From Rhizobiaceae bacterium (GTDB taxonomy: Bacteria; Pseudomonadota; Alphaproteobacteria; Rhizobiales; Rhizobiaceae), in NCBI GenBank assembly GCA_029233925.1, contig JARGOX010000007.1, forward strand, positions 124,001-188,000: a stretch of 64,000 nt of DNA, written 5' to 3'. Position 1 is the stretch's first letter. The number at the start of each line of letters is the position of its first letter. Shown piece after piece: positions 37,052 through 46,953 of this stretch. The notes below the pieces were generated by a model. The model searched no databases and was not told the DNA's origin. It worked only from the letters and a program-made list of their open reading frames with translations. A program made the position numbers and the translations under genes.

Positions 37052-37249
37052 ATGAACTGGGATATTGTTGAAGGCAAATGGAGTCAATTCAAGGGCAAGG
37101 CAAAGGAACAGTGGGGCGAACTCACCAATGACGATCTTGACGTCGTTGCCGGCAAAAAAGATCAGTTGGCCGGCAAGATTCAGGAGCGCTACGGCAAGAC
37201 CAAAGACGAAGCCGAACGCGAAGTCAACAAGTGGTCTGACTCCCTCTGA
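37052..37249 (+). CDS. CsbD-family stress protein
   Basis: The 65-residue protein begins MNWDIVEGKWSQFKGKAKEQWG and continues with the CsbD pattern DDLDVVAGKKDQLAGKIQERYG. CsbD proteins are abundant small, highly charged, stress-induced proteins of unknown mechanism. ATG 37052 is used because it starts the conserved MNWD and AAGG lies nine bases upstream; an in-frame GTG at 37043 adds three residues. It is monocistronic and followed by a strong terminator. Confidence 0.9.
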   Translation: MNWDIVEGKWSQFKGKAKEQWGELTNDDLDVVAGKKDQLAGKIQERYGKTKDEAEREVNKWSDSL

Positions 37250-37569: not shown

Positions 37570-38850
37570 TTGGAAAATTCACAGGTATCAGCCCGGAAAG
37601 ATCAGGCAATTGCACGCGGTGTGGGAATGATGACGCAGGTCTATGTGGACCGGGCGGAAAATTCCGAGATATGGGACATTGAGGGACGCAGATTTATCGA
37701 TTTCGCTTCAGGCATTGCTGTGGTGAATACGGGCCACCGCCACCCCAAAGTCATTGAAGCGGTCAAAAACCAGCTCGATCGGTTTACCCATACCTGCCAT
37801 CAGGTTGTCCCCTATGAAAACTATGTCGGTCTTGCCGAGCGGCTGAATGCCATCGTTCCGGGTGATTTCGAAAAGAAGACGGTTTTTGTGACAACGGGCG
37901 CAGAAGCCGTTGAGAATGCCGTCAAGATCGCCCGTGCCGCCACCGGCCGCAACGCGCTGATCTCTTTTTCTGGAGGCTTCCATGGCCGCACGTTCATGGG
38001 GATGTCGCTGACCGGCAAGGTCGCGCCCTACAAGCTTGGTTTCGGTTCCATGTCGGCTGATGTATTCCACGCGCCCTTTCCGGTGCCGCTGCATGGTATA
38101 ACAACCGAGCAGTCGCTTGCCGCGCTGGAAACACTTTTCAAGGCCGATGTCGATCCTTCACGGGTTGCTGGGATCATTGTCGAACCGGTCCAGGGCGAGG
38201 GCGGTTTTTACGATGCGCCGCGCGATTTCATGCGGAAGCTTCGCGCCGTTTGCGACAAACACGGCATCCTCCTCATCGCCGATGAGGTGCAGACTGGATT
38301 TGCCCGTACAGGCAAGATGTTTGCCATGGACCATTATGACGTCGCTGCCGATATCACCACGATGGCAAAGAGCCTTGCAGGTGGATTTCCCCTGGCCGCT
38401 GTCACTGGACGGGCGGAGATCATGGATGCGCCGATGCCTGGCGGTCTTGGCGGCACCTATGGCGGCAACCCTCTGGGGATAGCCGCTGCCCACGCCGTGC
38501 TTGATGTCATTGAAGAAGAGCAGCTTTGTGACCGGGCCAATACATTGGGCTCACACCTCAAGCAGCGCCTTGAAAGCCTGCGTGGGGATATACCGGAGAT
38601 AGTCGATATTCGCGGTCTCGGTTTCATGAATGCAGTTGAGTTCAATCAGCCCGGAACTGATATTCCGAATGCCGATTTCGCCAATGGCGTGCGCGCCAAT
38701 GCCCTGAAACGCGGATTGATCCTTCTGACCTGCGGCGTTTATGGCAATGTCATTCGCTTCCTGGCGCCGATCACTGTTCAGGACAATGTCTTCAGTGAGG
38801 CACTCGATATTCTTGAAGCCTCCATCCGTGCGATGAAGGATGGGAACTAG
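37570..38850 (+). CDS. gabT: Class III aminotransferase, 4-aminobutyrate transaminase type
   Basis: The 426-residue PLP enzyme has the GabT signatures: TTGAEAVENAVKIAR, EPVQGEGGF, IADEVQTGFARTGKMFA and the PLP lysine Lys267 in TMAKSLAGGFP. It would transfer the amino group of GABA or another omega-amino compound to 2-oxoglutarate. It starts with TTG, with GAAGGA about 11 bases upstream. Its end overlaps by 4 bases the end of the convergent XRE-cupin regulator, which is of the type that controls putrescine/GABA genes. The decarboxylase-ligase operon beyond that regulator may feed or use omega-amino products. Confidence 0.87.
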   Translation: MENSQVSARKDQAIARGVGMMTQVYVDRAENSEIWDIEGRRFIDFASGIAVVNTGHRHPKVIEAVKNQLDRFTHTCHQVVPYENYVGLAERLNAIVPGDFEKKTVFVTTGAEAVENAVKIARAATGRNALISFSGGFHGRTFMGMSLTGKVAPYKLGFGSMSADVFHAPFPVPLHGITTEQSLAALETLFKADVDPSRVAGIIVEPVQGEGGFYDAPRDFMRKLRAVCDKHGILLIADEVQTGFARTGKMFAMDHYDVAADITTMAKSLAGGFPLAAVTGRAEIMDAPMPGGLGGTYGGNPLGIAAAHAVLDVIEEEQLCDRANTLGSHLKQRLESLRGDIPEIVDIRGLGFMNAVEFNQPGTDIPNADFANGVRANALKRGLILLTCGVYGNVIRFLAPITVQDNVFSEALDILEASIRAMKDGN

Positions 38851-39419
38851 AAAGTCGGTGGCGTACAGGCACTGACGACGACGCAGGGCGCTTCCCCCAG
38901 GTTTCGAAACCGGTGGGGAATGCGGCTGTCGAATATATAGGCATCGCCCGGGCCCAGCATCTGGGTTTTCTCGCCGACACTGAGCTCTATCTCCCCGGAA
39001 ATGATAATGCCGGCCTCTTCGGCTTCATGGGCATAGAGTTCGGTGCCCGTATCTGCTCCCGGCGCGTAGGTTTCATGCAGCATCTGCAAGGTGTGGCGCG
39101 AAGCGTCGCCCACCTGGCGCAAGGAAAGGAAGGATGCCGCATCATCATCAATGCGGAAAACGCGTACGGGGTTTATTTCCCGCAACTCTGTCGATTTGAA
39201 AAAAACCTTGTCCTGATGCGGGTACTCCATACTGAAGAATTCCGAGAAGGTCATCGGTATGGCGTCCAGTATTCTTTTCAGCGATGCAACGGAGGGATTG
39301 GTCTGGCCCTGCTCAATCATCGAAATCAAGCCATTTGTCACGCCTGATTTTGAAGCCAGCTGCCGCTGGGACAAGCCATTTGCTTTCCGCAGGTATTTCA
39401 GTCTCTCTCCAACTTCCAT
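38847..39419 (-). CDS. XRE-cupin transcriptional regulator (PuuR-like)
   Basis: The 190-residue protein has an N-terminal helix-turn-helix of the Cro/XRE type (about residues 5-62, LKYLRKANGLSQRQLASKSGVTNGLISMIEQG) and a C-terminal cupin domain (about 110-185, with HEAEEAGIIISGEIELSVG). This is the architecture of PuuR and other polyamine or amino-acid pathway repressors. ATG 39419 follows GGAAAG by eight bases; longer versions to 39593 extend into noncoding DNA. It converges with the gabT-like gene and is divergent from the nitrilase-decarboxylase operon, whose upstream region contains an eight-base-arm palindrome. Confidence 0.85.
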   Translation of the reverse strand: MEVGERLKYLRKANGLSQRQLASKSGVTNGLISMIEQGQTNPSVASLKRILDAIPMTFSEFFSMEYPHQDKVFFKSTELREINPVRVFRIDDDAASFLSLRQVGDASRHTLQMLHETYAPGADTGTELYAHEAEEAGIIISGEIELSVGEKTQMLGPGDAYIFDSRIPHRFRNLGEAPCVVVSACTPPTF

Positions 39420-40018
39420 ATCCTGTCTTTCCATTTGGCACAGAAGCAGCGCCGGTGGATGGCTCCAGCGCACTGTGGTTGATTTTCGAGACGTTCCCGT
39501 CGACACACCTAATACAAGAATGCGTTGATGTCTAATTTCAGCCAGAGCGCGTATCTTGATCAATATAATAAACACTGCTAGCATTCCGTGCAAATGATGC
39601 TAATTTGCACCTTTGGAGCCTGCCGTCTTGTGGGGGCAACATCAAACAAGCAACTTCAGGGCATCGTTCGGGAGGACGTATTATAGGATATTGGACAATC
39701 CGCTTGATTGCCCCTTTGATTGCCAAGATGCCAGCGCATCCGTCAAATTCCAGTATCAGAGCCTGGAAAATAACCGGTCGCACAAATAGGGGCTATGCTG
39801 ATTGTGCTGCGCACATGTTGGTTCGTGGGGAATATCTGAAAAAGACCATTGATAGCTGCGTTTGCCTGAATTCGATGACCTTCCAGAACCGGCATGATTT
39901 ACCTTGGGTCGGATCAAACATCTATGGAGCCCGCTTCAAACGGCATATTTGCCAGTTGCTACTTGGTGGCAATGGTCTAGAAAGCGACAAGATCCAACTT
40001 GTTTGAAAGATTGATACG
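39420..40018. promoter_or_regulatory. Divergent control region with GTGCAAAT palindrome
   Basis: This 599-bp stretch has no convincing gene; the 133-codon frame at 39605-40006 has unusual composition, no ribosome site and no motif. A perfect inverted repeat, GTGCAAAT at 39588-39595 and ATTTGCAC at 39603-39610 with a seven-base spacer, lies about 170 bases from the regulator start. It is the best candidate operator for the XRE-cupin protein or another regulator of the operon that starts at 40019. Confidence 0.5.
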
Positions 40019-40984
40019 ATGACACCATTCGCAATAGCCGGCATTCAGATGCATGTGGCCGCTCTCCAATCCAATGTGGAAGGGATGCGGCACCGGCTTG
40101 ATGTGCTGATGGCGCGTTTCCCATGGACGCAAATGGTGTTGTTCAGCGAACTTGCCCCTTTCGGCCCGCTGCATAAATTTGCGCGGCCTTTTGAAAATGA
40201 TGCCATCGCGGTTTTTCGTGAAGATGCCAAACGGCACAATATCTGGCTGATTCCCGGGTCGATGTTCGAACAGGCAGAAAACGGCAAGATCTACAACACA
40301 TCCGTGGTGATCAATCCACAGGGTGAAATCGTTGCCAAATATCGCAAGATGTTTCCCTTCAGGCCCTATGAAATTGAAATCGAGGGTGGGACTGAATTCT
40401 GTGTATTCGATGTACCAGGCATCGGACGGTTTGGTCTGTCGATCTGTTATGACATGTGGATTCCCGAGACCACCCGTCAACTGACCAGCATGGGTGTGGA
40501 GGTGCTGTTGCATCCCGTCCTGACCGGTACAACCGACAGGGACGCGGAAATTGCCATTGCACGTGCAACCGCTGCTCAGTTCCAGTGTTACGTATTCGAT
40601 GTCAATGGATTGTCATCGGGTGGTGTGGGAAGGTCCTGCGTGATCGACCCGTCGGCGACCATTGTCTATCAGGCCGCAGGGCAGGAAGAGATGTTTCCGA
40701 TCGAGATCGATCTGGAGCAGGTTCGCCGTCAACGTGAAACCGGCATGAAGGGACTGGGGCAGGTGCTGAAGAGTTTCCGCGACCGTTCCGCCGAATTTCC
40801 GGTCTACGACCGGAACAGTGGCACGGATGCCTATCTTTATACACTCGGAAAACTTGAAATGCCGCAACAGAACAGCCGGGCCGGATTGAGCACAAGCCAT
40901 ATTGCCGAACCTGCTGCCCTGCTGCCAATTGAACCGGAAATCGGCGGGATTCCGCCAATTGTTGGAAAGACGGTAAGCGGCTGA
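40019..40984 (+). CDS. Carbon-nitrogen hydrolase (nitrilase superfamily)
   Basis: The 321-residue protein has the nitrilase-superfamily catalytic set: Glu44 (LFSELAP), Lys110 (KYRKMFPF) and Cys143 (SICYDMWIPE). Members hydrolyse or transfer at amides, carbamoyl groups or nitriles; the closest-looking types are omega-amidase and N-carbamoylputrescine amidase. After residue 260 there is a C-terminal extension of about 60 residues with no clear homology. It starts the operon with the decarboxylase, ATP-grasp and C45 genes, and could remove an amide or N-acyl group from an agmatine-, carbamoyl- or peptide-like intermediate. The ribosome site is weak. Confidence 0.8.
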   Translation: MTPFAIAGIQMHVAALQSNVEGMRHRLDVLMARFPWTQMVLFSELAPFGPLHKFARPFENDAIAVFREDAKRHNIWLIPGSMFEQAENGKIYNTSVVINPQGEIVAKYRKMFPFRPYEIEIEGGTEFCVFDVPGIGRFGLSICYDMWIPETTRQLTSMGVEVLLHPVLTGTTDRDAEIAIARATAAQFQCYVFDVNGLSSGGVGRSCVIDPSATIVYQAAGQEEMFPIEIDLEQVRRQRETGMKGLGQVLKSFRDRSAEFPVYDRNSGTDAYLYTLGKLEMPQQNSRAGLSTSHIAEPAALLPIEPEIGGIPPIVGKTVSG

Positions 40985-41069
40985 CAGCACAGTAGACCAT
41001 CCGAGCATCTCAGTCTGGATTGATCGCTGATAGTCACCGCTTGCTCTGCAAAGAAAAGGGCGATGACAT

Positions 41070-43808
41070 ATGAAATCGATGAGCGACCATTACAGTGCGG
41101 TGCAATTGCGAACCGACCGCTGGAACGCCCTGCAGCAGGCAACGGCAACATTGGTACGTGAGCCTTCCGGCAGGCCCGCAATCGCAAGTGTCAAACGGAT
41201 TGGCGAGCTCTTCGAGGCGCTTGAAGTCATTGAGCCCTATTGGGCGTTTCCGGGTTTGGCGGCCTTTGATGCAATGCGCCGGCAATTTGAACACAAGAAC
41301 TATGATGATCTGAATTTCTCGGTCCGCCGTGCAACCCGGGCGTTGGCCTCCGGTGCCTACCGGAGGCGCACGATTCCCCTTGATCGTGATGATTCCGAAA
41401 CGGAAGAAAACGAAGATGAGGCCATGCTCTCGCCAGAGGCGAGGGCTCTGAGCAAACCCTATTTTGAAGTATTGATCGTCGATGGTGTTTCCGATCAACA
41501 GGCGCGCTGGATGCGCTCCAATATGCATGACATGCGACGCACCGAGGACGGCTTTATCTATGAGGCCGTCGTCGTTCCCAGCCTGGAAGACGCGCTGATC
41601 GGCATCCTTTTCAATCACAATATCCAGGCCGTGGTTGTCCGGCCGGGTTTGACCCTCAAATCGAAAAATGAATTGCCGATCCTCAAGCGTTATCTCAACC
41701 GTGTGGGCGATGACGAGGATGTTGATGCTCTGAAACCGGAAGAATACGGGCCGGAACTGTGCCGTCTGATTGCAAAAGTACGCCCGGAGCTTGATGCCTA
41801 CCTGATCACCGACAGATCCGTGGAGGACATTGCAGGCATGGATCTCGGCCTGTGCCGCCGTGTCTTCTACAATCAGGAAGATTTTCTGGAATTGCACCTC
41901 AACATTCTCAGAGGGGTTCAGGCGCGCTACAAGACGCCTTTTTTCTCTGCACTGAAGGAATATTCCAAACAGCCCACCGGTGTTTTCCATGCCATGCCGA
42001 TCAGCCGCGGCAAATCCATATCGCGCTCTCACTGGATTCAGGACATGGGTGCGTTCTACGGACCCAATATTTTCCTGGCGGAAACCTCGGCAACCTCGGG
42101 TGGACTGGACAGTCTGCTTGAGCCGCATGGCCCGATCAAGGAAGCCCAGGAACTTGCATCACGGGCCTTCGGGTCCCGGCAGACATTCTTCGCAACCAAT
42201 GGCACATCAACTTGCAACAAGATTGTTGTCCAGGCCCTGGTGCGGCCCGGCGACATCGTGCTGGTCGACCGCGATTGTCACAAGTCCCATCACTATGGAA
42301 TGGTCTTGTCGGGCGCTCAGGTTGTCTATCTTGATAGCTACCCGCTGAATGAGTACTCGATGTATGGCGCTGTGCCGCTGCGGGAGATCAAGCATCAATT
42401 GCTCGCGCTCAAGGCTGCAGGCAAACTGCACCGGGTGCGCATGCTGCTGCTGACCAACTGCACGTTCGACGGTATTGTCTATAATGTCGAACGGATCATG
42501 GAAGAGTGTCTGGCGATCAAGCCTGATCTGGTTTTCCTCTGGGATGAGGCATGGTTTGCATTCGCCCGCTTCGGGCCTACCTATCGCCAGCGCACGGCGA
42601 TGAACGCCGCCGCGAACCTGCGGGCCAAGCTGCGCACCCCCGCAGCAGCGAAAGCCTGGGAGGCGCAATGCGAGAAAATCGATGCGGATGACCATGAGGC
42701 GCTGCTGAACACCCGTCTTGTGCCACCGCCCCATGCCCGTGTCAGGGTCTACGCGACGCAATCGACGCATAAAACGCTGACGTCATTGCGCCAGGGCTCG
42801 ATGATCCACGTCAATGACCAGGACTTCAAGGGCGAGGTGGAGCAGAGTTTCCACGAAGCCTATATGACGCATACGTCCACGTCGCCAAACTATCAGATCA
42901 TCGCCTCGCTTGATGTGGGCAGGCGACAGGTGGAACTGGAAGGTTTCGAATTCGTCCAGCGCCAGGTGGAGGCGGCCATGTCCATGCGACGGGCCATTTC
43001 CACGCATCCGCTTCTTGTCAAATATTTCAAGGTTCTGACGGCCGGCGACATGATCCCCGAATCCTACCGCGAAAGCGGCGTCACTTCCTACTATGACCCT
43101 GATCAGGGCTGGACCGATATCTGGGAGTGCTGGGCCAGAGATGAATTCGTTCTGGATGCGACCCGTGTCACTGTGGCGGTCGGAGATACCGGCTGGGACG
43201 GTGATACGTTCAAAACCCAGATCCTGATGGACAAATACGGTATCCAGATCAACAAGACATCGCGCAACACGGTCCTGTTCATGACCAATATCGGAACCAC
43301 GCGGTCATCGGTTGCCTATCTCATCGAGGTCCTGGTCGAAATCGCCAAGGAGCTTGACGAGCTTTATGACGATGCGTCCCGGATGGAGCGCCTGAGCTTT
43401 GAACGCCGGGTCAAGAACCTGATGGTGGACTTTCCACCGCTGCCGGATTTCAGTCGTTTCCACCCGGCATTCCGTGCCGATGACATAACGCCTGAAGGCG
43501 ATATACGGACGGCATTTTTCCTGAGTTATGACGAAAACAATTGTGATTATCTGGACCTTAATGGAAGTGTGATTGATGCCATAGAAAGCGGACGTGAGGT
43601 TGTCTCTGCGTCCTTCATCATTCCCTATCCGCCAGGGTTTCCGATCCTCGTTCCAGGGCAGGTGGTCAGCCGCGAAATCCTGGCATTCATGAGAGCTTTG
43701 GATGTCAGCGAGATTCACGGATACCGGCCGGATCTGGGCTTGCGTGTCTTTACGGAAGAGGCGCTGCAAAAACTTCTAAAACAAAACGACAAACTTGCTG
43801 CAGAATAA
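41070..43808 (+). CDS. Orn/Lys/Arg-type PLP decarboxylase family protein
   Basis: The 912-residue protein contains the fold-type-I Orn/Lys/Arg decarboxylase major domain with the PLP lysine Lys568 in QSTHKTLTSLRQGSMI, the cofactor-binding stretch FFATNGTSTCNKIVVQAL and the aspartate motif LVFLWDEAWFAF. An N-terminal part of about 280 residues includes a receiver/wing-like segment (FEVLIVDGVSDQQARWM) and an acidic insert (DSETEENEDEA near 103-115). It is longer than inducible Arg or Lys decarboxylases (about 710-760 residues). The C-terminal domain (GREVVSASFIIPYPPGFPILVPGQ) is conserved. AAGGG precedes ATG 41070. It sits 13 bases before an ATP-grasp ligase, suggesting the amine product is conjugated. 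Confidence 0.85.
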   Translation: MKSMSDHYSAVQLRTDRWNALQQATATLVREPSGRPAIASVKRIGELFEALEVIEPYWAFPGLAAFDAMRRQFEHKNYDDLNFSVRRATRALASGAYRRRTIPLDRDDSETEENEDEAMLSPEARALSKPYFEVLIVDGVSDQQARWMRSNMHDMRRTEDGFIYEAVVVPSLEDALIGILFNHNIQAVVVRPGLTLKSKNELPILKRYLNRVGDDEDVDALKPEEYGPELCRLIAKVRPELDAYLITDRSVEDIAGMDLGLCRRVFYNQEDFLELHLNILRGVQARYKTPFFSALKEYSKQPTGVFHAMPISRGKSISRSHWIQDMGAFYGPNIFLAETSATSGGLDSLLEPHGPIKEAQELASRAFGSRQTFFATNGTSTCNKIVVQALVRPGDIVLVDRDCHKSHHYGMVLSGAQVVYLDSYPLNEYSMYGAVPLREIKHQLLALKAAGKLHRVRMLLLTNCTFDGIVYNVERIMEECLAIKPDLVFLWDEAWFAFARFGPTYRQRTAMNAAANLRAKLRTPAAAKAWEAQCEKIDADDHEALLNTRLVPPPHARVRVYATQSTHKTLTSLRQGSMIHVNDQDFKGEVEQSFHEAYMTHTSTSPNYQIIASLDVGRRQVELEGFEFVQRQVEAAMSMRRAISTHPLLVKYFKVLTAGDMIPESYRESGVTSYYDPDQGWTDIWECWARDEFVLDATRVTVAVGDTGWDGDTFKTQILMDKYGIQINKTSRNTVLFMTNIGTTRSSVAYLIEVLVEIAKELDELYDDASRMERLSFERRVKNLMVDFPPLPDFSRFHPAFRADDITPEGDIRTAFFLSYDENNCDYLDLNGSVIDAIESGREVVSASFIIPYPPGFPILVPGQVVSREILAFMRALDVSEIHGYRPDLGLRVFTEEALQKLLKQNDKLAAE

Positions 43809-43821
43809 AAGGGAGAACAAA

Positions 43822-45315
43822 ATGGTGAACACGACCACGACTGAAAAACCCAAACGCGCGTCCGGAGCTTTGCAAAACATTTCGGAAATACGCCGGTATT
43901 TCCATCGAAATGAAAACCCGATCTATTTTGTATCCGCCACCAATTTCAATCTGCTTGGCATTGATGAATGGTGCAAGAATTTCAAATATATTTCCTATAT
44001 CGACACCTATGACGGGCGTCACCCCAATGTCTTCTGCCCCAGCGAACAACCGCACGCGGAATTCCAGTCGATCGAGGATATCAACAATTACTTGCTGCAG
44101 CACAAGGAAGTCATTGACCTGATCAAAAGGCGCGGTGGAAAGCCACACTTCGTTTTCCTGATGTTCAACGAGGAAACGGAGCGCCTTGTCGAAGAACTGG
44201 GAGGCAAGGTCTGGTTTCCAAAAGCTGCGCTTCGCACGCGCTGCGACAACAAGATCGAAACGGTCCGCATTGGCGACAAGGCCGGCGTGCCATCGGTTCC
44301 CAACACGCTTTCCGAAATCAAGGACTACGCACATCTGAAGGAGGTCTGTGAAAAGGCCGGTATCGGACATGATGTGGTTCTGCAGTCGGCGTTCGGCGAT
44401 TCAGGACATACGACGTTTTTCATCAACTCGGAGGCGGACTTCCGCCAGCACGAGCACGAGATCGTCGGAGAAGGCGAAATCAAGGTGATGAAACGCATCA
44501 ATTGCCGTGGTTCAGCCATCGAAGCCTGCGCCACCTCGCAGGGAACGATTGTCGGGCCGCTGATGACCGAACTGGTCGGCTTCAAGGAGCTGACCCCTTA
44601 TCGGGGCGGCTGGTGCGGGAACGAAATCTTTGCCACTGCTTTCGCGAAAAAAACCCGGCAGAAGGCGCGCGAGCTGACTTTCAAATTTGGCGAGCAGCTT
44701 CGCAAGGAAGGCTATCGTGGTTATTTCGAACTGGATTTTCTGATTGATCAGAAAACCGGTGAGATCTGGCTGGGCGAGCTCAATCCGCGCATCACCGGAG
44801 CCAGTTCCATGACCAATCATGCGGCTTTTGCGCATGCCGATGCACCCTTGTTTCTGTTCCACCTGCTGGAGTTCTCCGGCAAGAAATTCACTCTGGATGT
44901 TGAGGAATTGAACAATCGCTGGGCTAATCCAAGCATGATTGACGACTGGTCGCAGATGGTGATCAAACATACCAAGGACAGCGTGGATATCATTACCGAG
45001 GCGCCGCAGACGGGCATATACAAGATGCTTGAAGACGGTCGTGTCGTGTTTGACCGGTTCGACTACCACAGACGGGCGGTTGAGAGTGAAAACGAAGCGT
45101 TTTTCCTGCGGATCGTCAATTCCGGTGATTATCGCTATGAAGGGGCCGACCTTGGCATTCTCGTCACCCGCGGCCGTTCAATGACGGACAAGTTTCAACT
45201 GACCGAACGATCCAAGAAATGGATACACGGCATCAAATCCAGTTTTGAAGCCCGTCCTCTGGACGTTGCGAGTGCCGGACCGGCCCTGGCTGAACCCGCA
45301 TTCAAGATACTCTGA
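43822..45315 (+). CDS. ATP-grasp ligase (biotin-carboxylase-like)
   Basis: The 497-residue protein has an ATP-grasp domain: the glycine-rich loop AFGDSGHTTF (190-199), the purine/lysine region VMKRINCRG (222-230) and the metal-binding motifs FELDFLID (302-309) and GELNPRITG (318-326). An N-terminal Rossmann-like lobe (YFVSATNFNLLGIDEW) precedes it. ATP-grasp enzymes join a carboxylate to an amine through an acyl-phosphate. There is no biotin-carrier or carboxyltransferase partner, so peptide or amide bond formation is more likely than carboxylation. GGGAG lies six bases before ATG 43822. The C45 gene follows after 4 bases. Confidence 0.82.
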   Translation: MVNTTTTEKPKRASGALQNISEIRRYFHRNENPIYFVSATNFNLLGIDEWCKNFKYISYIDTYDGRHPNVFCPSEQPHAEFQSIEDINNYLLQHKEVIDLIKRRGGKPHFVFLMFNEETERLVEELGGKVWFPKAALRTRCDNKIETVRIGDKAGVPSVPNTLSEIKDYAHLKEVCEKAGIGHDVVLQSAFGDSGHTTFFINSEADFRQHEHEIVGEGEIKVMKRINCRGSAIEACATSQGTIVGPLMTELVGFKELTPYRGGWCGNEIFATAFAKKTRQKARELTFKFGEQLRKEGYRGYFELDFLIDQKTGEIWLGELNPRITGASSMTNHAAFAHADAPLFLFHLLEFSGKKFTLDVEELNNRWANPSMIDDWSQMVIKHTKDSVDIITEAPQTGIYKMLEDGRVVFDRFDYHRRAVESENEAFFLRIVNSGDYRYEGADLGILVTRGRSMTDKFQLTERSKKWIHGIKSSFEARPLDVASAGPALAEPAFKIL

Positions 45316-45319
45316 CATT

Positions 45320-46324
45320 ATGCCAGTCAGCGTCTGGCGTGCGATATCGGAAGATCTACCCGGCCCCAAATGGGCCGGGCTTTTCCGCGAATACTGGCCG
45401 GACTATCAGCGATGGTGGTTGCGCGAGGGTGAAAACGCCCGCCCGACCTATGGTGAAAGCCGTCGCGCGCTGCAGCGCCACATGCCTGAAATCGTCGGGC
45501 TCTATGATCAGCTTTGCGAATTGGCAGGGGGCGGCGATCATGCGGCGCGGTTCCTGAGTTTCTATTGTCCTCCTGCCTACCTGTCCGGTTGCTCGCAGGC
45601 AATCTGGCCGGGTGCCGAGCCAGTTCTTGTGCGCAATTACGACTACAATCCCGATGCTTTTGACAGCCTGATCCTGCGTACATCATGGCAGGGTCGTGAG
45701 GTCATGGGTGTCAGTGACGGGCTCTGGGGGCTTGTTGATGGTGTCAACGATGCCGGACTCGCCATTTCACTGACCTTTGGCGGGCGCCGGATTGTCGGAG
45801 AGGGGTTTGGGGTGCCGCTCATTCTTCGCTATGTTCTGCAAACCTGCGAGACGACGGATCAAGCCGAGGAGGCGCTGCGCCGTCTGCCGACGCATATGAG
45901 TTACAATGTCACTGTCCTTGATGCCAAACGTAAATATCTGACGGCCATGATGGCGCCTGACCGTCCCGCGGTCATTACCCATGCTGCGGTTGCGACCAAT
46001 CATCAGGAAACGGTTGAATGGGTGCATCATGCACGCTTCACAGCGACAGTGGAGCGGGAACGGTTTCTTCTACAGCGTTTGACATTGCATGTGGACCCGG
46101 AAGAAAAATTCATCGGGGCTTTTCTCAAGCCGCCACTCTACTCGACTGCCTATTCTGAAGGTTTCGGGACGCTTTATACGGCTGTGTACAAGCCCAGGCA
46201 GGGTCGTATGGATATACACTGGCCCGGGGTTGTCTGGCCATTCAGCTTCAAGCAATTTCAGGAAGGCCTTCGCAAGGTTCACACGCCGGAAGCCAAGAGA
46301 ACGGACCTCCCGTTAAAACGCTGA
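45320..46324 (+). CDS. C45-family acyltransferase/autoproteolytic hydrolase
   Basis: The 334-residue protein is related to acyl-CoA:6-aminopenicillanate acyltransferase (peptidase family C45, Ntn fold). The putative nucleophile is Cys91 in YLSGCSQAIW, followed after about 15 residues by the Ntn-typical LVRNYDYNPD. Family members cleave themselves before this Cys and then hydrolyse or transfer acyl groups on amides such as penicillins, acylated amino acids or peptides. Here a 90-residue propeptide would be released. It ends the operon of nitrilase, decarboxylase and ATP-grasp enzyme, so its substrate is probably the amide made by the ATP-grasp enzyme. No signal peptide is seen; the ribosome site at ATG 45320 is weak. 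Confidence 0.78.
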   Translation: MPVSVWRAISEDLPGPKWAGLFREYWPDYQRWWLREGENARPTYGESRRALQRHMPEIVGLYDQLCELAGGGDHAARFLSFYCPPAYLSGCSQAIWPGAEPVLVRNYDYNPDAFDSLILRTSWQGREVMGVSDGLWGLVDGVNDAGLAISLTFGGRRIVGEGFGVPLILRYVLQTCETTDQAEEALRRLPTHMSYNVTVLDAKRKYLTAMMAPDRPAVITHAAVATNHQETVEWVHHARFTATVERERFLLQRLTLHVDPEEKFIGAFLKPPLYSTAYSEGFGTLYTAVYKPRQGRMDIHWPGVVWPFSFKQFQEGLRKVHTPEAKRTDLPLKR

Positions 46325-46344
46325 CAAAGATGGAAGAACCGGAT

Positions 46345-46953
46345 TTACTCAGTGTAACCCAGCGAACTCAGTCGAATCTTGATATCACGCCGCTCGGCAG
46401 CATCAAAATTCCGCTGTTCCTGATTGTGCTCTTCGAACAATCTCCTGAATGTCGCCCTTGACCGTTTGAGGAGTTGGTTGCACGTTTTCTGCGCGGGTGA
46501 CTCCAGCAGGGTTTGTTCGATCAGTCTTGCATATTTCTGAGAGATCTCGACATGTTGCTGTTCATGCCTCTCCACATGTTTGCTGAGGCCCTGAAAACCG
46601 GACTGGGTGCCACTGTCCGCCTGATCAAGCTGTGACCAGCGCGGCAGGGTCACTGTTATATCCAGCAACACGACCACGGATTCTGCGCTGCATTGACCAT
46701 TTTGCCGTTTGGTTTTGATTTTTGGCGTCATGCGCGTTTCTGTGGTGCCGATAGCGTGACCATTTTGCGGTCCGCGACGGGCAATGCCATCATTGATCTG
46801 TTGCGCCGTCGTCCCCGGTACGGTGTAATAGACGGTCGTCAGACCGGAATTCGTGCTGGTACAGGCCGTCAGCGCAAGAAAACCCGCCACCATAAGCGGG
46901 ATCTTCAGTCTCCCTGTGGCAAAGAGGGCTGCTTGCCTTGGGTCTGTGCGCAT
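46345..46953 (-). CDS. DUF922 lipoprotein, putative zinc protease
   Basis: The 202-residue protein has a hydrophobic signal with a lipobox (FLALTACTSTN, Cys31) and a DUF922 domain with YYTVPGTTAQQI near residue 42 and the zinc-protease-like HExxH in VERHEQQHVEI near 130. It would be anchored in the cell envelope. Members are predicted peptidases of unknown substrate. It converges with the C45 gene and does not seem to belong to that operon. The gene has no strong ribosome site at ATG 46953. Confidence 0.75.
   Translation of the reverse strand: MRTDPRQAALFATGRLKIPLMVAGFLALTACTSTNSGLTTVYYTVPGTTAQQINDGIARRGPQNGHAIGTTETRMTPKIKTKRQNGQCSAESVVVLLDITVTLPRWSQLDQADSGTQSGFQGLSKHVERHEQQHVEISQKYARLIEQTLLESPAQKTCNQLLKRSRATFRRLFEEHNQEQRNFDAAERRDIKIRLSSLGYTE

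Follow-up and report, generated by a model that had tools for sequence, protein, structure and literature searches.

Four adjacent genes, encoding a nitrilase-superfamily amidase, an enlarged Orn/Lys/Arg-type decarboxylase (DC), an ATP-grasp ligase and a C45 Ntn-hydrolase, make up a module that is conserved in many marine, salt-loving and root-nodule bacteria. The preliminary description of this DNA had recognized no known pathway with this set, and its view still stands, as the four-gene set was found nowhere described in the full-text literature (subscription papers and preprints lying outside this coverage); PMC8407117, in its accessible part, concerns other genes. The explanation that we favour, although it is a tentative one, is that of a catabolic module controlled by a PuuR-type regulator, which would be an analogue of the gamma-glutamylputrescine (Puu) route with unrelated enzymes.

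The locus is part of a stretch of 64,000 nucleotides, hereafter the window, from a Rhizobiaceae bacterium with a genome of 6.1 Mb, where it is located on the contig labelled C22. Its features are as follows:

37570..38850, + strand: gabT-like 4-aminobutyrate--2-oxoglutarate transaminase, a recurrent neighbour (NF005692)
38847..39593, - strand: PuuR-like regulator with HTH and cupin domains, transcribed divergently from the nitrilase gene (HTH_3, Cupin_2)
39594..40018, no strand: divergent intergenic region, by position the expected site of the operator and the operon promoter
40019..40984, + strand: nitrilase-superfamily (CN hydrolase) amidase, 321 aa (PF00795)
41070..43808, + strand: enlarged PLP-dependent Orn/Lys/Arg-type decarboxylase (DC), 912 aa (PF01276)
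43822..45315, + strand: ATP-grasp ligase, 497 aa, database name 'biotin carboxylase' (NF005096, ATP-grasp fold)
45320..46324, + strand: C45 Ntn-hydrolase/acyltransferase, 334 aa, predicted self-cleavage at G90-C91 (NF040521)
46345-46953, - strand: DUF922 gene, the next one after C45, in opposite orientation (PF06037)

The four ORFs are listed on the + strand at 40019-40984, 41070-43808, 43795-45315 and 45245-46324, and with the start codons that were chosen for the ligase (ATG 43822) and the C45 protein (ATG 45320) the intergenic gaps between them are 85, 13 and 4 bp. The tight order of four enzymes proposed earlier was thus reproduced, and the family of each was recovered by profile searches and, for the ligase, also from the predicted fold. 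A small ORF at 37052-37249 of the window was recognized by eye as resembling a CsbD-family stress protein.

Searches with the ligase found 408 relatives in named genomes, of which the best 80 were analysed; these 80 loci are labelled Alphaproteobacteria or belong to genera that we take to be alphaproteobacterial. The closest named relative among these best 80 of 408 matches is a Rhizobiaceae MAG (L002), whose ligase is 97% identical. The DC was present in 80 of the 80 loci, C45 in 79 and the nitrilase in 73, and all eight misses are cases where the locus ends at a contig end before the gene concerned. The median gaps, which were calculated over 81 loci (the 80 and L082) and only where both ORFs were delimited, were 73 bp for nitrilase-DC (73 loci), 16 bp for DC-ligase (57 loci) and 14 bp for ligase-C45 (52 loci). 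Of 398 genomes drawn from the phylum as a whole, 134 had a ligase match at E 0.001, mostly of weak partial ATP-grasp similarity, and 11 had one below 1e-100. In nine of these 11 the four genes are all near one another, with nitrilase-C45 facing DC-ligase in one of the nine (L122). Plasmid records gave 32 ligase matches (24 covering at least 80% of the ligase) and phage records searched with the ligase gave none. The survey of 80 loci and the nine of 11 distant genomes, with the catalytic motifs intact, bear out that the four-gene set is co-conserved across genomes. As a strict unit of four genes it holds for most loci, but not for three Shinella-type loci (L083, L127, L210), which are without DC at this place, nor for the rhizobial copies and L120 and L121, which show no nitrilase. 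The last two, which are among the 11 phylum-wide matches, are GC-rich with gene calls partly on the wrong strand, and no nitrilase was seen in them. In the Shinella-type loci, the ligase and C45 genes, which have genes for the nitrilase and an Lrp regulator in their vicinity, belong to a cluster for a 5-guanidino-2-oxopentanoate decarboxylase, an agmatinase-family protein, an aldehyde dehydrogenase, a D-amino acid dehydrogenase and a racemase (family matches computed for L083).

The nitrilase-family protein scored 105 bits against PF00795 (CN_hydrolase), and its residues E44, K110 and C143, presumably the catalytic triad, are invariant in 13/13 aligned relatives. Against the N-carbamoylputrescine amidase equivalog (TIGR03381) it reached 68 bits, which is under the cut-off of 410. 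A simple chain from arginine over agmatine to N-carbamoylputrescine was rejected on account of this failure and of the lack of a deiminase among the scanned genes. The DC scored 258 bits against PF01276 (OKR_DC_1; gathering score 27), and its STHK motif, which we take to be the PLP lysine motif, aligns with that of the solved arginine and lysine decarboxylases. Its segment DEAWFAFA resembles the DEAWYAYA of arginine decarboxylase more than it does the lysine enzyme in these alignments, a weak hint at arginine; 2,4-diaminobutyrate, ornithine, citrulline and arginine are all candidate substrates. Its nearest solved relative is 9n0n/9n0o, with homology over the full length (residues 13-903, E ~1e-255). 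Relatives of the DC outside the module (47-49% identity; L130, L132) adjoin aspT antiporter genes, in one case also aspD, which suggests a decarboxylation-antiport system for these relatives.

The ligase had no Pfam match at E 0.001. It scored 765 bits against NF005096, a 'biotin carboxylase' equivalog with a cut-off of 684, and the name of this model by itself is no functional evidence. Its predicted fold (pLDDT 85.6) has 2v58 as best match (E 1.1e-19), and the nearest folds are biotin carboxylase domains with TM-scores of about 0.5-0.6. The residues K144 and E319-x-N321-x-R323, the latter presumably the ExNxR metal/ATP motif, are invariant in 23/23 aligned relatives, and by the predicted fold and this motif the protein is an ATP-grasp enzyme. 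In the QVEH motif of carboxylases the glutamine and glutamate hold bicarbonate and biotin. The ligase has NPRITGAS at the position of the carboxylases' NPRIQVEH, so that this bicarbonate/biotin motif is missing; the label 'biotin carboxylase' is therefore unsupported, and was rejected as the function of the ligase. The C45 protein scored 110 bits against PF03417 (AAT) and 186 bits against NF040521 (C45_proenzyme; cut-off 85). Its G90 and C91 are invariant in 27/27 aligned relatives and the bond between them is the expected site of self-cleavage; in the available part of PMC10194958, Gly-Cys cleavage is reported for IAT and for the insect protein Tan. The closest match to its predicted fold (pLDDT 89.2) is the isopenicillin N acyltransferase precursor 2x1c (E 2.8e-12). 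The profile, the Gly-Cys site and the predicted Ntn fold jointly place this protein in the C45 family. Standalone C45 relatives on Sinorhizobium and Sulfitobacter plasmids gave no hint of a substrate.

Next to the module in the window, the gabT-like protein scored 840 bits against NF005692 (cut-off 724), whereas the regulator scored 136 bits against the PuuR equivalog NF007408, below its cut-off of 211, and is thus related to PuuR rather than its equivalog. A repeat search of the intergenic region 39594..40018 found no inverted repeat and no convincing operator, only two short direct repeats (TTGATTGCC twice; AACCGGCAT/AAACGGCAT). Neither an aldehyde dehydrogenase nor an importer gene is adjacent to the module in the window. 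The counts of neighbours that follow, except those for the Rhodobacteraceae-like family, are drawn from the best 80 of the 408 ligase relatives. A gabT gene (at least 50% identity) is found in 14/80 loci, the other 66 being without it in the fetched flanks, and a PuuR-like gene (at least 50% identity) in 13/80, in nine of them together with gabT. The regulator is on the opposite strand in all 13 loci carrying it, where the gene that it faces is that of the nitrilase in one, the importer in five and gabT in seven. Of the 75 loci with enough room downstream of C45, 28 have a class III aminotransferase there, on the same strand and at most 400 bp away (47 are without), and of the 65 with room upstream 35 have a TAXI-TRAP permease at no more than 1.5 kb. 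The fullest order is puuR, divergent from gabT-TAXI-nit-DC-ligase-C45-aminotransferase; regulator, gabT, importer, the four genes and aminotransferase are all together in L003 and L032, two of seven chosen loci displayed, and the distance between gabT and the importer gene in L032 is 10 bp. Of the 149 genomes of a Rhodobacteraceae-like family, 29 carry the ligase, and at least 14 of these have gabT within 11 kb of it, a lower bound since only gabT matches below 1e-150 were counted; this gabT search provides no usable control for co-occurrence tests, given the linkage of gabT with the module. Due to their recurrence (14/80 and 13/80 loci) and the divergent regulator in 13/13, the gabT gene and the PuuR-like regulator are no chance neighbours, and polyamine or omega-amino chemistry, to which they had been taken to point, appears to be the right direction.

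A link to ectoine breakdown is seen in a family of genomes (that of G383) that is called Halomonas-like by gene content only, in which 29 of the 121 genomes drawn have the ligase. In 21 of the 22 loci inspected from these 29, the genes are arranged on one strand as (doeA) doeB doeX, then nitrilase, ligase, C45 and DC, and then doeC doeD; among these 21, doeX is 7.4 kb from the nitrilase gene in G500, with other genes between, and 2.9 kb separate DC and doeC in G469. The exception is G434, where the ligase is 45% identical and doeA is lacking. In all 28 other carriers doeA is near the ligase, at 3.9-4.5 kb in 27 and at 11.5 kb in one. Across the family 75 of the 103 genomes with doeA are without the ligase, and the co-occurrence of the two genes has p = 0.07. 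Of eight such genomes with doeA and no ligase, five have a doeX-doeC gap of 210-317 bp and three have unrelated genes there, and therefore this junction also accepts other genes. The doeX-doeC junction or the interval between doeX and the module holds fdhD, molybdopterin oxidoreductase or AAA/DUF6638 groups in L203, L206, L207 and L208. The main text of the four ectoine papers searched contains none of the terms 'nitrilase', 'ATP-grasp' and 'biotin carboxylase'. Among the Rhodobacteraceae-like genomes, 27/29 ligase carriers have doeA versus 72/120 non-carriers (Fisher p = 0.0004, uncorrected for genome size). The window's own genome has doeA, doeX, doeC and doeD together with a PALP gene on contig C21 (doeB was not found at E 1e-8), while the module in the window, on another contig, is not inside doe genes. 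In the alphaproteobacterial flanks (best 80 of 408), 1/80 loci has a doe gene (L040, with a doeB-like gene immediately before the module) and four have doeC-like matches; in L129 the DC is near ectB with an IS element between them.

In the rhizobial copies DC, ligase and C45 come in this order, and after them a peptide-type ABC transporter and an amidase of another family; no nitrilase was seen. The module of R. leguminosarum Vaf10 and nifHDKEN are divergently oriented, and that of strain OyaliB, where DC is in two pieces and C45 is cut short, is near fixAB-type genes and nifA. On pSymA of S. meliloti RU11 (L209 5690-6930) there are two NifA-type sites, each about 100 bp before a -24/-12 promoter of the sigma-54 type; these promoters have 0 and 1 mismatches to the consensus, and the second is 235 bp before DC. 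These units, with short nifH-like 5' ends, look like repeated nifH 5' regions, as if duplicated there. The other copies scanned (L084, L085, L131, L211) showed no clear correctly oriented promoter except a site with two mismatches in L085. Among the rhizobial copies several are split, shortened or partial (L085, L084, plasmid matches H24-H32), and the partial ligase matches on plasmids of S. medicae and S. meliloti appear decayed. In a set of symbiotic plasmids (L211 5285-12510, L216, L214) the module is beside nifHDKEN in one strain; elsewhere ectB, for diaminobutyrate transaminase, is near nif or with aspartate-semialdehyde dehydrogenase and glnA/gltB. Radical-SAM RiPP maturation genes are beside the rhizobial module in L084, L131 and L215, a Nif11-type leader peptide being named in the first two.

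The neighbours of the module suggest the catabolism of an imported or internal amine precursor to an omega-amino acid for GabT. In the route that we propose, DC would convert a basic amino acid (or a derivative) to an amine, one amino group of which would be capped by the ATP-grasp ligase through ATP-driven amide formation with a carboxylate. The free end could then be oxidized by the class III aminotransferase and an aldehyde dehydrogenase, roles that DoeD and DoeC, respectively, may fill in the Halomonas-like genomes. The C45 hydrolase would take off the cap and, as the last step, GabT would transaminate the released omega-amino acid. The nitrilase might remove a further amide or carbamoyl group, for example from N-carbamoylputrescine or an amide on the cap. 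Every reaction, their order and the substrate are here inferred from what was directly observed, viz. the gene set, its conservation and context, the motifs and the predicted folds. Capping during oxidation, as in the Puu route, is proposed because an ATP-grasp ligase and an amide hydrolase occur beside an aminotransferase and, in the halophiles, also beside a semialdehyde dehydrogenase. Uncapping by C45 is plausible because AzsT, as stated in the accessible part of PMC10445470, removes a succinyl cap.

Co-conservation, the regulon-like neighbours and the position beside doeC-doeD in 21/22 Halomonas-like loci favour this Puu-like route. Against it, the window lacks an adjacent aldehyde dehydrogenase or importer and has an opposite-strand DUF922 gene after C45, 47/75 loci are without an adjacent aminotransferase and 66/80 without a gabT of at least 50% identity, and the nitrilase has no firm role. 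It is also disfavoured by the DC-less arginine-type cluster of the Shinella-type ligase and C45 and by the DC segment nearer to arginine decarboxylase; agmatine would offer only one ordinary amine to oxidize. These last observations suit a route in which DC would form agmatine and the other three enzymes would process guanidino or ureido intermediates to GABA without any capping; a second DC copy near arginase and argO/argP genes in L128 agrees with it, as do the guanidino-type genes of L083, L127 and L210 and the segment DEAWFAFA. However, neither a ureohydrolase nor a deiminase is among the genes identified in the window and seven chosen loci, the nitrilase, with 68 of 410 bits, falls short of the N-carbamoylputrescine amidase model and the ligase would be superfluous, and we regard this route as improbable. 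We consider it unlikely that the module is biosynthetic and builds an amide product (an acylated amine serving as a solute, a signal or part of a metallophore), with C45 as an acyltransferase and ectoine breakdown feeding the module. An ATP-grasp enzyme with an acyltransferase is a typical amide-building route, the nearest fold of C45 is isopenicillin N acyltransferase, and some copies are beside nif genes or NifA-type promoters; but the surrounding regulator, gabT, importers and doe genes are catabolic, and no exporter was noticed next to the module in the annotated loci examined.

The Puu-like route also has a version for a particular substrate, in which 2,4-diaminobutyrate (DABA) derived from ectoine would be decarboxylated to 1,3-diaminopropane, capped, oxidized and released as beta-alanine. 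Its support comes from the 21/22 Halomonas-like loci inside doe, the enrichment of doeA among Rhodobacteraceae-like carriers (27/29 vs. 72/120, p = 0.0004, uncorrected for genome size), the doeA, X, C, D and PALP genes on another contig of the own genome, the DC near ectB in L129 and the doeB-like gene just upstream in L040. However, doe genes are in the flanks of only 1/80 alphaproteobacterial loci (doeB; doeC-like in four), 75/103 Halomonas-like doeA genomes are without the ligase, the doeX-doeC junction takes unrelated genes too (fdhD, molybdopterin oxidoreductase, AAA/DUF6638) and an IS element separates ectB from DC in L129; this version is thus an unlikely specification of the route. Highly improbable, lastly, is an N-carboxylation, in which the ATP-grasp enzyme would put bicarbonate on nitrogen as biotin or urea carboxylases do, with the amidases acting on the product: the database name (NF005096) and the biotin carboxylase domains as nearest folds speak for it, but NPRITGAS stands for NPRIQVEH, the TM-scores are only about 0.5-0.6, and no carrier or carboxyltransferase gene is beside the ligase.

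If the Puu-like route is correct, a function would be gained at once for a ligase family filed as 'biotin carboxylase', for a large decarboxylase family with a solved member and for a C45 family; the turnover of ectoine and polyamines in marine bacteria would gain a branch, and the genes on rhizobial symbiotic plasmids would become testable. A more far-reaching idea, which we think doubtful, is that the Puu logic was invented a second time with ATP-grasp and C45 enzymes, was wired in halophiles into the breakdown of ectoine (from DABA via 1,3-diaminopropane to beta-alanine) and came in some rhizobia under NifA control for nitrogen-fixing nodules.

Several known systems can be compared with this module. 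The DC is homologous over residues 13-903 to the Rv2531c-type decarboxylase (PDB 9n0n, 9n0o, 9n0p), for which the accessible part of PMC12910592 gives no known activity. The module of the Halomonas-like genomes is in the same operon region as doeABX-doeCD of Halomonas elongata and could use DoeD and DoeC; in H. elongata, however, doeX directly adjoins doeC with no module between, and the two are on separate transcripts (PMC3187862, available part). AzsT, the C45 desuccinylase of azaserine biosynthesis, was shown in vitro to free an amine nitrogen of its succinyl cap and is of the same family as the C45 of the window; it differs, according to the part of PMC10445470 available, in belonging to a natural-product pathway with its substrate on a carrier protein. 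Isopenicillin N acyltransferase, also of the C45 family, has the same predicted fold and Gly-Cys self-cleavage site as the C45 of the window, although the sequence identity in the structural match is 14%.

The Puu (gamma-glutamylputrescine) pathway consists of PuuR, PuuA-D and GabT. The module shares with it a PuuR-type regulator, GabT, aminotransferase/dehydrogenase partners and, as proposed, a ligase-hydrolase pair around the oxidation. However, where the Puu pathway has the glutamine-synthetase-like PuuA, a type of ligase absent from the seven proteins of 37570-46953 (Pfam, NCBIfam), the module has an ATP-grasp ligase, and in place of the class I amidotransferase-like PuuD it has a C45 Ntn-hydrolase. 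The module further differs in having its own decarboxylase and nitrilase and a regulator under the PuuR equivalog cut-off. Hence, the logic of the module resembles that of the Puu pathway, whereas its enzymes do not.
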